From assembly GCF_026013645.1 (NCBI RefSeq), contig NZ_CP110224.1, positions 2,418,001 to 2,482,000 on the forward strand: a stretch of 64,000 bases of DNA, given 5' to 3'. A program made the translations under genes and the position numbers. Below the pieces are notes generated by a model. It saw only the letters and a list, made by a program, of their open reading frames with translations, was not told the origin of the DNA and did no database searches. Positions 5,047 through 60,218 of this stretch are shown here, one piece after another. Each line of letters starts with the position of its first letter. Positions within the stretch are counted from its first letter, which is position 1. The DNA is from Virgibacillus natechei (GTDB lineage: Bacteria; Bacillota; Bacilli; Bacillales; Amphibacillaceae).

Positions 5047-6606
5047 TTATGCCTTATTTATTTTTGATTTGTTTACAAAACCAATTATTATCCCAATACC
5101 TATAACAACAATGAAAGTAGCTAATAATGGCAGTAAAACTTGGTTTGTTACACCAATAATAAGATAACCAATACTAGCAGCGACTGCTGCTAGGATAGCG
5201 TACGGCAATTGTGTTAGAACATGATCAATATGATTGGATCCAGCTCCAATGGAAGACAAGATCGTTGTATCCGAAATTGGCGTACAATGATCACCAAAAA
5301 CGGAACCAGCTAACACAGCAGCTAACGAGGGTAGAAGCATGTTGATGTCTGTAATAACAGCTACTTCTGCTGCAATTGGCAACATGATACCAAATGTTCC
5401 CCACGATGTCCCCGTTGAGACTGCCATCACCCCAGCGATAAAGAAGAAGAGGAATGGCAGTAACGACGCGCTAATCGAGGCATCATTTACAATTTGCGCT
5501 AAATACTCCCCTGTTTCTAACGTGCCAATTATCGAACCGATCATCCATGCCAATACTAATATATATATAGCTGGAAGCATGGTTTTTATACCTTCTATAA
5601 AAATGGTAAGTCCATTCGCTCTCGGTTCTTCTTGTTGCAAATGGAATACAAGACCGGTTAAAACTGCACTTAAACCACCGATAAACAAGGACAAATTAAC
5701 ATCTGTATTTGCAAAAGTAGTTAAAATTGTAACGTCACCTTTACTGGCATTAGCACCCGTAACAATCATCGAAACAACTGTAGCTCCAATTAACATAGCA
5801 ATTGGTATTAATAAATGAAATATCTTACCACCTTTATGAGGTACAAAGGTATCACCCAGATCCCCTGGTGCATTATCTTTTTCTGGATTTAACAGCTGCC
5901 CTGTTTCAATTGCTCGTTGTTCATGCGTACGCATCGGGCCGATATCCATTTTAAAATAGGCTACCAGAAAAACAAGTAATAGTGCTGATAATGCATATAA
6001 GTTCAATGGAATCATTTGAATAAAAGCCTCAAGTGGTTGAATATCGGTTATTCCATTAGCAGCAAATAAGCCACCGAGTATCCCAATAATATAAGCTCCC
6101 CAGCTTGATATAGGTGAAATCACGGTTATCGGAGCTGATGTTGAATCAATGAAATAAGCAAGTTTTGCCCTTGATACTTTATGACGATCGGTTAGCGGTC
6201 TAGCTATTTGTCCAACAGCAAGACTATTGAAGTAATCATCTATAAAAATAACTAAGCCCAGTACAGGAGTCATAATCTGCGCACCTGTTCTTGTCTTCAC
6301 ACGCTTTATCATCCATTCACCAAACGCTCTGCTCCCACCAGATGCTTGCAGGAATGCTGTCATCGTACCTAGTAATAGCAAAAAAGCAATAAGTAAAATA
6401 TTACCTGTATTTAATGCCCCATCCAAAATAAAGATTTCATAAAAAATAGTCCAAATCTCTCGTATCGAATCCAAGATTGCGAAATCATGAATGAATAATG
6501 CCCCAATCAGAATGCCTGTACCAAGCGAAATCAATACATTCCTCGTTATTAATACGAGTACAAGCATTAATACTGCTGGAATTATTGAAAAAATGGTTCC
6601 TTCCAT
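5047..6606 (-). CDS. NhaC-superfamily transporter, probable lysine transporter
   Basis: A 519-residue polytopic membrane protein with 11 or more hydrophobic segments. It carries the NhaC-superfamily core around residues 120-175: IDDYFNSLAVGQIARPLTDR, then SRAKLAYFIDSTSAPITVISPISSWGAY. Such proteins are annotated as Na+/H+ antiporters but include amino-acid transporters. Here a lysine riboswitch with a terminator directly precedes the gene, so lysine uptake (LysW-like) is the better inference. ATG 6606 follows AGGAGG. It is monocistronic. Family membership is certain; the substrate is inferred from the leader RNA only. Confidence 0.85.
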   Translation of the reverse strand: MEGTIFSIIPAVLMLVLVLITRNVLISLGTGILIGALFIHDFAILDSIREIWTIFYEIFILDGALNTGNILLIAFLLLLGTMTAFLQASGGSRAFGEWMIKRVKTRTGAQIMTPVLGLVIFIDDYFNSLAVGQIARPLTDRHKVSRAKLAYFIDSTSAPITVISPISSWGAYIIGILGGLFAANGITDIQPLEAFIQMIPLNLYALSALLLVFLVAYFKMDIGPMRTHEQRAIETGQLLNPEKDNAPGDLGDTFVPHKGGKIFHLLIPIAMLIGATVVSMIVTGANASKGDVTILTTFANTDVNLSLFIGGLSAVLTGLVFHLQQEEPRANGLTIFIEGIKTMLPAIYILVLAWMIGSIIGTLETGEYLAQIVNDASISASLLPFLFFFIAGVMAVSTGTSWGTFGIMLPIAAEVAVITDINMLLPSLAAVLAGSVFGDHCTPISDTTILSSIGAGSNHIDHVLTQLPYAILAAVAASIGYLIIGVTNQVLLPLLATFIVVIGIGIIIGFVNKSKINKA

Positions 6607-6691
6607 TGTTATTACCTCCTAAGTTTTTACGTTTGTGCAGGGATTGAGGTTTTAGAAATTAATGTTTCAATACATCTTTAAAAAAACATAC

Positions 6692-6728
6692 AAAAAAGAC
6701 AATGATAGGAAATAACTTATCATTGTCT
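6692..6728 (-). terminator. Riboswitch expression-platform terminator
   Basis: On the minus strand AGACAATGATA pairs with TATCATTGTCT around an AGTTATTTCC loop, then TTTTTTG. It sits between the lysine aptamer and the transporter start, so ligand binding would give premature termination. Confidence 0.85.
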
Positions 6729-6752
6729 AGCGATATAGGTTATCCTCCATTT

Positions 6753-7019
6753 CGATCGGTAGTCCTCCATGCACAAACGTTTAGCATGACAGTACATCCC
6801 TTATTCAAAGACATACCAGCCATAATAAGTTTGACCCTTATTATAGCTTCGGCAAACGATCCTTTCATTTAGAAAACTTGGCATTCGCAAAGGCTTTAGG
6901 CGAATGTCCTTAGTCTGCACTTATGCAGTAGGAAAGGAATACTTTCCTATCTGCCAACGATCAAAGGTGTCAACCTCCCGTTGATTACTCTTATCATTTG
7001 CTCCTCTACCTCACCGATC
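6753..7019 (-). promoter_or_regulatory. Lysine riboswitch (L box), expanded by an inserted repeat
   Basis: On the minus strand GATCGGT (7019-7013) pairs with ACCGATC (6759-6753) as P1. It is followed by the L-box strings GAGGTAGAGGAGC and AAGAGTA, then TGAAAGGATCGTTTGCCGAAG-type sequence and GGCTGGTATGTC..TTTGAATAA..GGATGTACTGTC. P2a arms GCAAATGAT and ATCGTTTGC pair. A normal aptamer is about 170-180 nt; this one is about 267 because a repeat of about 94 nt lies in the P2 arm (6862-6955). Lysine should repress the downstream transporter if the aptamer still folds. The family call is firm; activity is unknown. Confidence 0.85.
6862..6955 (+). repeat. Family D repeat inside the lysine riboswitch
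   Basis: Contains TTAGAAAACTTGGCA at the left and CTATCTGCC at the right, the same ends as copies at 36637, 59983 and 62333. The unit is flanked by two copies of AACGATC (6855-6861 and 6956-6962), consistent with a 7-bp target duplication. It has internal stem-loops such as GTAGGAAAG with CTTTCCTA-type arms and TGCACTTATGCA. Confidence 0.75.
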
Positions 7020-7089
7020 AGTAAGGTTTAATTATTTAATTTGTAAGTATCTACTATACTAAATTCTTAGCCAACCTGCAAGACAAAAT

Positions 7090-20023: not shown

Positions 20024-20140
20024 TTCCCTCATCTGCCAAAGCGTACACTTTGCAGGAGTTGGCACCTTTCAGACTTCGTAATGTTCTGAAGGTTGCCGCA
20101 GTTTCACAGGGCCAGTCCCTCCACCGCTCAAGATAAGAGA
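20024..20140 (-). promoter_or_regulatory. SAM-I riboswitch (S box)
   Basis: On the minus strand the canonical S-box order is present: CTTATCTTGAGCGGTGGAGG, GGACTGGCCCTGTGAAAC, CGGCAACC, AGGTGCCAACTCCTGCAAAG and a closing GGCAGATGAGGG. SAM binding would favour the terminator at 19973-20005 and switch off metNPQ. Confidence 0.96.
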
Positions 20141-20260
20141 TATAATCGTACCGTTTAGCTTTGAAAGCTTTAATTGTACTGATGCAGGTAGGAACATTTA
20201 TACTCTCCTACTGCAAAAATACTAGCACACTAGTTTTCTAGTGTCAATATTGTTATTTCA

Positions 20261-59982: not shown

Positions 59983-60110
59983 GAAAACTTGGCTTTGTTA
60001 AAGGGATTCTTAGAAAGCATTCTTTGCTTTATTAGAAACCCTTATACTTTGGAGTGCAAGCTTTTATGGCAAAGCCTTAGTTGCACTTACGACGCACAGG
60101 ACGTGCTAGT
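59983..60110 (+). repeat. Family D repeat between pgsC and pgsA
   Basis: GAAAACTTGGCTTTGTTAAA, then GGGATTCTTAGAAAGCATTC and CCCTTATACTTTGGAGTGCA, matching the 36637 copy almost base for base, but the right TGCCAAG end is missing. It runs into a family C unit (60128-60165). Confidence 0.6.
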
Positions 60111-60127
60111 ACTGGCGTTGTCACAAA

Positions 60128-60165
60128 TCTCTTCGGTGGGGTGAGCATTTACGCGCAGCCCCAGG
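60128..60165 (+). repeat. Family C stem-loop, copy in the pgsC-pgsA gap
   Basis: CTCTTCGGTGGGGTGAGCAT followed by TTACGCGCAGCCCCAGG; GGGG and CCCC form the stem. Confidence 0.55.
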
Positions 60166-60189
60166 ACGTGACGGTTTTAGCCAGTGAGC

Positions 60190-60218
60190 AGAAAAGGAAG
60201 TTGTAAACTTTCTTTTCT
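60190..60218 (-). terminator. Hairpin right after pgsC
   Basis: On the minus strand AGAAAAGAAAGTT pairs with AACTTCCTTTTCT around TAC. It starts 3 nt after the pgsC stop. There is no long T run, so it may be an attenuator or a stabilising stem rather than a full terminator. Confidence 0.5.

Follow-up and report, generated by a model that had tools for sequence, protein, structure and literature searches.

The locus described here raises the question of whether a mobile repeat has entered the aptamer of a lysine riboswitch and, if so, whether the switch could still work. In the window (the whole stretch of 64,000 nucleotides that was analysed), a lysine riboswitch aptamer is located on the minus strand at positions 6752-7016, as the preliminary description had proposed from the L-box landmarks. 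A cmscan search with RF00168 covered model positions 1-182 of 182 with a score of 95.2 bits (E 6.1e-24; gathering score, 30), and a whole-genome search with the same model recovered this aptamer as a local match to model positions 16-167 at 63.5 bits. All of the features described below are also on the minus strand unless otherwise stated.

Both an expression platform and an NhaC-family gene are present downstream of the aptamer. The platform, recognized from its sequence and folding, is an intrinsic terminator at 6692-6727, formed by GACAATGATA / TATCATTGTC (stem 6727-6718/6707-6698) and a run of six Ts (6697-6692). The terminator scan did not report this hairpin, the loop of which exceeds the limit of 8 used by the scan, and a hairpin and T-run resembling it were found in the orthologous leaders L068 and L069. 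A likely promoter, TTGCAG-17-TATAGT (7053-7081), is absent from the output of the promoter scan and was identified by reading the sequence and aligning it with L068 and L069, in which the -10 box is TATAAT. Another promoter-like site, ATGAAA-17-TATAAT, lies inside the aptamer at 6840-6868, but such sites occur at chance level (3 in the region vs. 1.9 expected). The gene under the riboswitch (5047-6606) is a full-length ORF for a 519-aa protein of the Na+/H+ antiporter family (NhaC/LysW-like; PF03553, E 2.5e-70). Its orthologs were found at 36 loci (46-81% identity in the best segment), and the top match among named genomes was from Virgibacillus indicus (81% protein identity), although the nearest records may be missing from the search. 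Because lysW, a transporter gene under a lysine riboswitch, is placed in the NhaC superfamily (PMC5584792), the 519-aa protein is a likely candidate for a lysine transporter.

The element in question is an 86-nt dispersed-repeat insert with two hairpins, GCAGATAGG...TTTTCTAA, located at 6869-6954, and its extent is supported by empty sites, orthologs, and a covariance model of the repeat (R1), which matched 6869-6957 at 99.3 bits. The preliminary description had estimated its length at about 94 nt and regarded its edges as uncertain, but a relative of the same genus (G001) reads straight through the site and resolves the junction at the base level. When positions 6690-7040 of the window were used as a query, bases 2-86 and 173-349 hit adjoining bases in G001, and the base-level alignment stops at GTTG and restarts at ATGAAAGG. 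The orthologous leader of a second relative of the same genus (G002) reads GTTGACGAAAGG at the empty site; both relatives thus carry the leader without the insert. The edges at the aptamer site cannot slide because flank and insert differ on either side. Orthologous leaders carrying the insert, or loss of the L-box match, would have spoken against the preliminary description, but neither was found: lysine aptamers were found in 32 of the 36 orthologous loci (20 of 20 in the first set and 12 of 16 in the second), none of the 32 contains the insert, and the L-box match in the window stands. Thirty of these aptamers are 174-184 nt long, and the remaining two are 203 and 207 nt long. Across the 36 orthologous loci and four loci of the same genus, the repeat model gave six matches, none of which is inside an aptamer. 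The 86-nt element is a genuine insertion of a mobile-type repeat into the aptamer, with an exact empty site. Repeats are classic assembly traps, and an assembly or sequencing error might also have put the repeat into the leader. This explanation is extremely unlikely: the genome is a single contig and 99.8% complete, the inserted copy is unique (the next best is 85% identical over the full length, or 88% identical over 64 nt), and the insert shares its edges with two other copies for which empty sites exist.

In the lysine riboswitch, the P2 arm comprises, in order, P2, a sarcin-ricin bulge, P2a, a K-turn, and P2b (PMC2258182). Reading of the sequence and comparison with the orthologous P2 strings assigned AUCAACG (6979-6985) to the 5' arm of P2a and ATCGTTTGC (6852-6860) to the native 3' arm of P2, which pairs with GCAAATGAT (6993-7001) at a mean predicted pair probability of 0.94. 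L2, read as UUGAC (6969-6973), is complementary to L3, GUCAA (6831-6835), so that the kissing loop is kept. The native 3' arm of P2a, CGTTG (6955-6959), abuts the insert. Directly after the insert lies AUGAAAGG (6861-6868), which contains the last two bases of P2a and what we take to be the letters of the 3' strand of the sarcin-ricin (loop E) motif. The first two bases of AUCAACG would pair with the AU at 6867-6868, past the insert.

This arrangement bears on the two AACGATC copies flanking the repeat, which had been viewed as a 7-bp target duplication that kept the P2 arm intact. Both copies are native. In P2a, the native 3' arm is formed by the upstream GATCGTTG, and the first AACGATC (plus strand) overlaps CGTTG at 6955-6959. 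In P2, the native 3' arm is formed by the downstream GATCGTTT, with ATCGTTTGC corresponding to the second AACGATC. The insert-free loci L043, L053, and L056 contain both arms, GATTGTTG and GATTGTTT. The P2 arm survives not through a duplication but because the point of entry of the repeat lies between P2a and the strand of the sarcin-ricin motif. Twelve copies in one region were compared with G001; 10 had enough flank, and seven were aligned, yielding two clean empty sites (positions 508058 and 579715 of the genome carrying the window), one rough site (579257, a decayed copy), and four sites without a usable junction. At the two clean sites, the edges are the same as in the aptamer, except that the edge at 508058 can slide by one G, and the length of duplication is 0 bp at these sites as well as at the window site. 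Target duplication was therefore rejected. The left target was already present at the three empty sites (TTGTTG, TCCTTG, and TTTTTA), and the left flanks of 28 copies contain, relative to the starting GCAG, T at -3 in 26 copies, T at -6 in 26, and G at -1 in 18. On the basis of these letter counts and the ortholog and empty-site alignments, CGTTG in P2a also represents the left target (T..TTG). The copy at 508058-508148 (locus L016) lies within a gene for which G001 has an uninterrupted ORF of 201 aa.

The repeat belongs to a dispersed family, in agreement with the earlier view of the sequence in the P2 arm. In the genome carrying the window, at least 40 matches including the insert itself were obtained by DNA search (best 40 of 153 candidates), and 116 matches were obtained by the covariance model at E <= 0.001 (150 of 2425 candidates scored). 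R1 was built from 28 copies; of the 34 rows aligned, six were left out (L023, both L009 rows, and the second row of each of L017, L028, and L030), and the window copy is two bases short in this alignment. The repeat had been reported at four or more other places in the window. The other matches there are weak: four at E 9e-5 to 0.0034, two of them overlapping at 20160-20241, and two more at E 0.021 and 0.037. No second strong match was found by R1 within the 64-kb window, and the family is therefore mainly distributed over the whole genome rather than bound to the window. In the taxonomic family, 57 of 120 genomes contain matches to the repeat model (up to 36 candidates scored per genome); 27 of the 57 contain 10 or more matches, and seven contain a single match that may be due to chance (E 4.8e-4 to 9.2e-4). 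No Rfam family overlapped the repeat at the gathering score in the 40 copy loci scanned, and no description of the repeat family was found among the literature matches listed. Bacillaceae-1 RNA (RF01690) occurs once in the window (60093-60196, minus strand) and four times in three of the 40 repeat loci (L004, L016, and L029), and may also be dispersed.

The consensus of the repeat forms two hairpins. Over the 28 copies, 90.8% of paired cells are standard pairs, compared with 83.2% in shuffles; double-changed cells number 44 vs. 16.2 (0 of 500 shuffles as high) and double-changed pairs 8 vs. 5.1 (7 of 500), although the kinship of copies can inflate such counts. This signal was lost when the pairing partners were slid, and further pair types in the hairpins are at the chance level (18 vs. 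18.0 over the 28 copies). The divergence of the insert copy from the consensus is 8.2% (gaps left out), the fourth smallest among the 28 copies, which range from 6.7 to 19.3%. If the origin of replication is assumed to lie at the contig start (GC skew was viewed in one 20-kb stretch), 28 of the best 30, 42 of 50, 60 of 80, and 83 of 116 copies are oriented with the replication fork. In two places (G069:C25:41840-42107 and 3866100-3866281 of the genome carrying the window), head-to-tail copies were found about 88-89 nt apart, with model matches overlapping by a few bases.

As for the class of the element, no terminal inverted repeats were seen by eye in the 28-copy consensus, the edges of which are GCAG...CTAA, and with neither these nor a target-site duplication the repeat differs from MITEs. 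Transposition of the IS200/IS605 type proceeds through single strands and is not known to generate a target duplication. The repeat resembles elements derived from this type in the lack of duplication and the preferred left target, but not in shared ends. The GT[AG]G of REP/REPIN sequences was not found at the hairpin foot, where GCAG is present and is itself paired in hairpin 1. The genome carrying the window contains eight Y1-transposase matches; a single IS200-type gene present in three copies accounts for three, and another three are RAYT-like (59.7, 71.2, and 73.1 bits, all under the curated cut-off of 80). The RAYT-like genes were rejected as the mover because no clear repeat copy lies within 1.5 kb of any of the three, and the resident IS200-type element (three copies) was rejected as the autonomous parent because its ends differ from those of the repeat. 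Among 17 Y1-transposase loci with 1.5-kb flanks, a clear repeat match was found at one, which is of the IS200 type. RAYT matches were present in 41 of the 57 genomes with the repeat vs. 34 of the 63 without it (p 0.06), in a search at E <= 0.001 that also catches IS200-type genes (the curated cut-off was passed by 27 of the 120 genomes), and five of the 21 genomes with 20 or more repeat matches have no RAYT match (genome list compiled by eye). Thus, neither ends, neighbourhood, nor co-occurrence linked the repeat to the resident Y1 genes. An apparent tandem array of units of approximately 163 bp (from the spacing of repeated ORFs) is located beside an IS200-type transposase gene at about 2000-2950 of L135.

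Apart from the insert, the aptamer is well preserved. When the insert was removed and the sequence was compared with 34 other leaders, differences were found at 0 of 75 positions conserved in >=95% of leaders, 0 of 69 invariant positions, and 2 of 91 positions conserved in >=90%; a leave-one-out comparison at the last level gave 3 to 9 deviating positions for at least 12 of the 35 leaders. This finding supports the initial claim that a mobile-type repeat entered a lysine riboswitch and removed no invariant aptamer base. Changes specific to the window leader number 4 vs. 3 in L069 and 5 vs. 4 in L068, indicating no speed-up in this lineage, but the lack of decay proves little if the insertion is young.

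Secondary structure prediction gave mean pair probabilities of 0.97 for P1, 0.94 for P2, 0.93 for P2a, and >=0.99 for P3-P5 with the insert, compared with >=0.99 for all of these stems without it. Shuffled inserts gave a mean of 0.37 for P2a, and 7 of 60 reached the value of the real insert. The insert is predicted to fold mostly on itself (24.5 expected pairs within the insert vs. 4.4 between the insert and the rest). It was rejected as a terminator, none being reported inside it by the terminator scan (loop limit of 8).

The position of the insert is a concern, as only two pairs of P2a separate it from the sarcin-ricin motif on the 3' strand. The letters of the motif are kept, but the insert parts its UGAAAGG strand from P2a. 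The two A-U pairs closing P2a below the insert are predicted to be unformed (probability of about 0.001), and pairing is predicted between the insert tail, UUUUC, and GAAAG in the motif (0.47-0.93 per base). Nearest-neighbour energy models cannot score sarcin-ricin pairing, and the predicted probabilities there therefore cannot decide the matter. The sarcin-ricin motif is described as more highly conserved than the K-turn (PMC2258182), and the K-turn, the kissing loop, and the L4-P2 contact are described as important for folding or termination (PMC3764141, PMC4316175). It is thus possible that the insertion broke or badly weakened the switch through loss of the sarcin-ricin motif and of the P2 arm geometry that docks L2 on L3, leaving the transporter constitutive or poorly controlled and the aptamer a young relic. 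The proximity of the insert to the motif and the predicted capture of GAAAG favour such a loss, and the presence of one detected lysine aptamer in this genome vs. two each in G001 and G002 fits, without proving, reduced lysine control. We nevertheless consider this outcome rather unlikely, since none of the 69 invariant positions has changed, evolution in this lineage is no faster than in its sisters, the terminator and promoter are kept, and P2 and P2a are kept in the predicted secondary structure.

Our preferred reading is that the lysine switch probably still works, perhaps in a weakened form. The 86-nt non-coding repeat entered the 3' strand of P2a behind a T-rich target (T..TTG), which was not duplicated, and would fold by itself into two hairpins that form a side-branch at the P2/P2a boundary. 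Because the core junction, kissing loops, and terminator are unchanged, lysine sensing and the stop of transcription by the leader have most likely been retained, perhaps with less sharpness. For folding in the cell, lysine binding, and regulation, we infer this from the sequence and its predicted structure.

The interrupted aptamer is a singleton. A search of 75 genomes of the taxonomic family yielded 121 lysine aptamers, among which it has a span of 235 nt in the local match and is the sole one exceeding 207 nt, the other 120 spanning 159-207 nt; the search used strict filters, by which weak, interrupted aptamers could be missed. It is also the only lysine aptamer detected in its own genome. 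When 37 lysine, T-box, and SAM aptamers of this genome were considered (8 of them below the gathering score), seven had a repeat copy inside or within 100 nt, a copy between two T-boxes being counted twice, and the lysine aptamer alone had a copy inside. No enrichment of copies in riboswitch leaders is claimed: the uniform expectation is 0.42 of 37, but 2.8-3.5 would be expected if all copies are restricted to 12-15% of the genome, a fraction that was assumed.

Copies located directly downstream of T-box aptamers were found in L029 (1501-1589), L030 (1501-1590), and L017 (1043-1098), corresponding to genome positions 3023158, 18285, and 579335, respectively; these are near terminator-like T-runs, and one lies between two T-boxes, as does a pneumococcal BOX element. 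In the window, a decayed 5' half of the repeat (20160-20217, minus strand; E 9e-5) is located between a TTGACA promoter-like box and a SAM aptamer (20026-20139, minus strand), approximately 20 nt before the aptamer.

The repeat might also have been co-opted as a working part of the switch, its hairpins tuning the lysine response or adding a second input. Its location within the one lysine switch detected in this genome, its undecayed state (8.2% from the consensus, fourth closest of 28), and the 7 of 37 aptamers with a copy inside or nearby are in line with such a role. It is, however, highly unlikely, because none of the other 120 lysine aptamers has a comparable span and 7 of 37 exceeds the number expected under confinement by no great margin. 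A broader proposal, which we regard as doubtful, is that the family represents an RNA-benign mobile cassette, in which strong folding of each copy on itself would let copies insert into transcribed RNAs with a structure, an aptamer included, without stopping these from working. When 27 other copies were placed in silico at the aptamer site, both P2 and P2a exceeded 0.8 for 19; of 100 86-mers taken at random from the genome, 11 did as well (Fisher p 2.8e-9). This effect needs a better control because the 86-mers were drawn from 110 kb of the genome regardless of genes, and 7 of 60 shuffles reached the P2a value of the insert. Neutrality would be bought in such a cassette as in self-splicing introns, but without splicing.

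Among known systems, the lysine riboswitches of LysW (NhaC superfamily; RF00168), as described in PMC5584792, share with the window the full model, the conserved core, and an NhaC-type gene downstream, whereas the window aptamer differs from ortholog L-boxes in the 86-nt mobile repeat in P2a. Riboswitches can accommodate variable insertions that fold into stem-loops of their own (PMC2258182), and the window likewise contains extra sequence predicted to fold separately with the core undisturbed; here, however, the insertion can be traced to a dispersed repeat family and to an empty site in relatives. It thus shows how riboswitch variable insertions can arise from a traceable mobile repeat, and provides a natural insertion experiment in a well-solved aptamer with exact sequences before and after the event. 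REP/REPIN sequences with RAYT, and elements moved by IS200/IS605-type transposition, resemble the window repeat in hairpins, many copies, a preferred target on one side, and a strand bias (PMC6006769). The lack of a target duplication is a further shared trait, but the window repeat lacks the GT[AG]G foot, could not be clearly tied to RAYT, and has ends unlike those of the resident IS200-type element. It has been called conceivable that MITEs form riboswitches or terminators (PMC10969869). Among the literature matches listed, none described a mobile repeat within an aptamer, and the nearest precedent found is the BOX element in the trp leader of Streptococcus pneumoniae (PMC3049150). There, as in the window, a structured dispersed repeat resides in a regulatory leader, and the authors think that the switches still work; the BOX element, however, lies between two T-box riboswitches, whereas the repeat in the window lies inside the aptamer itself.
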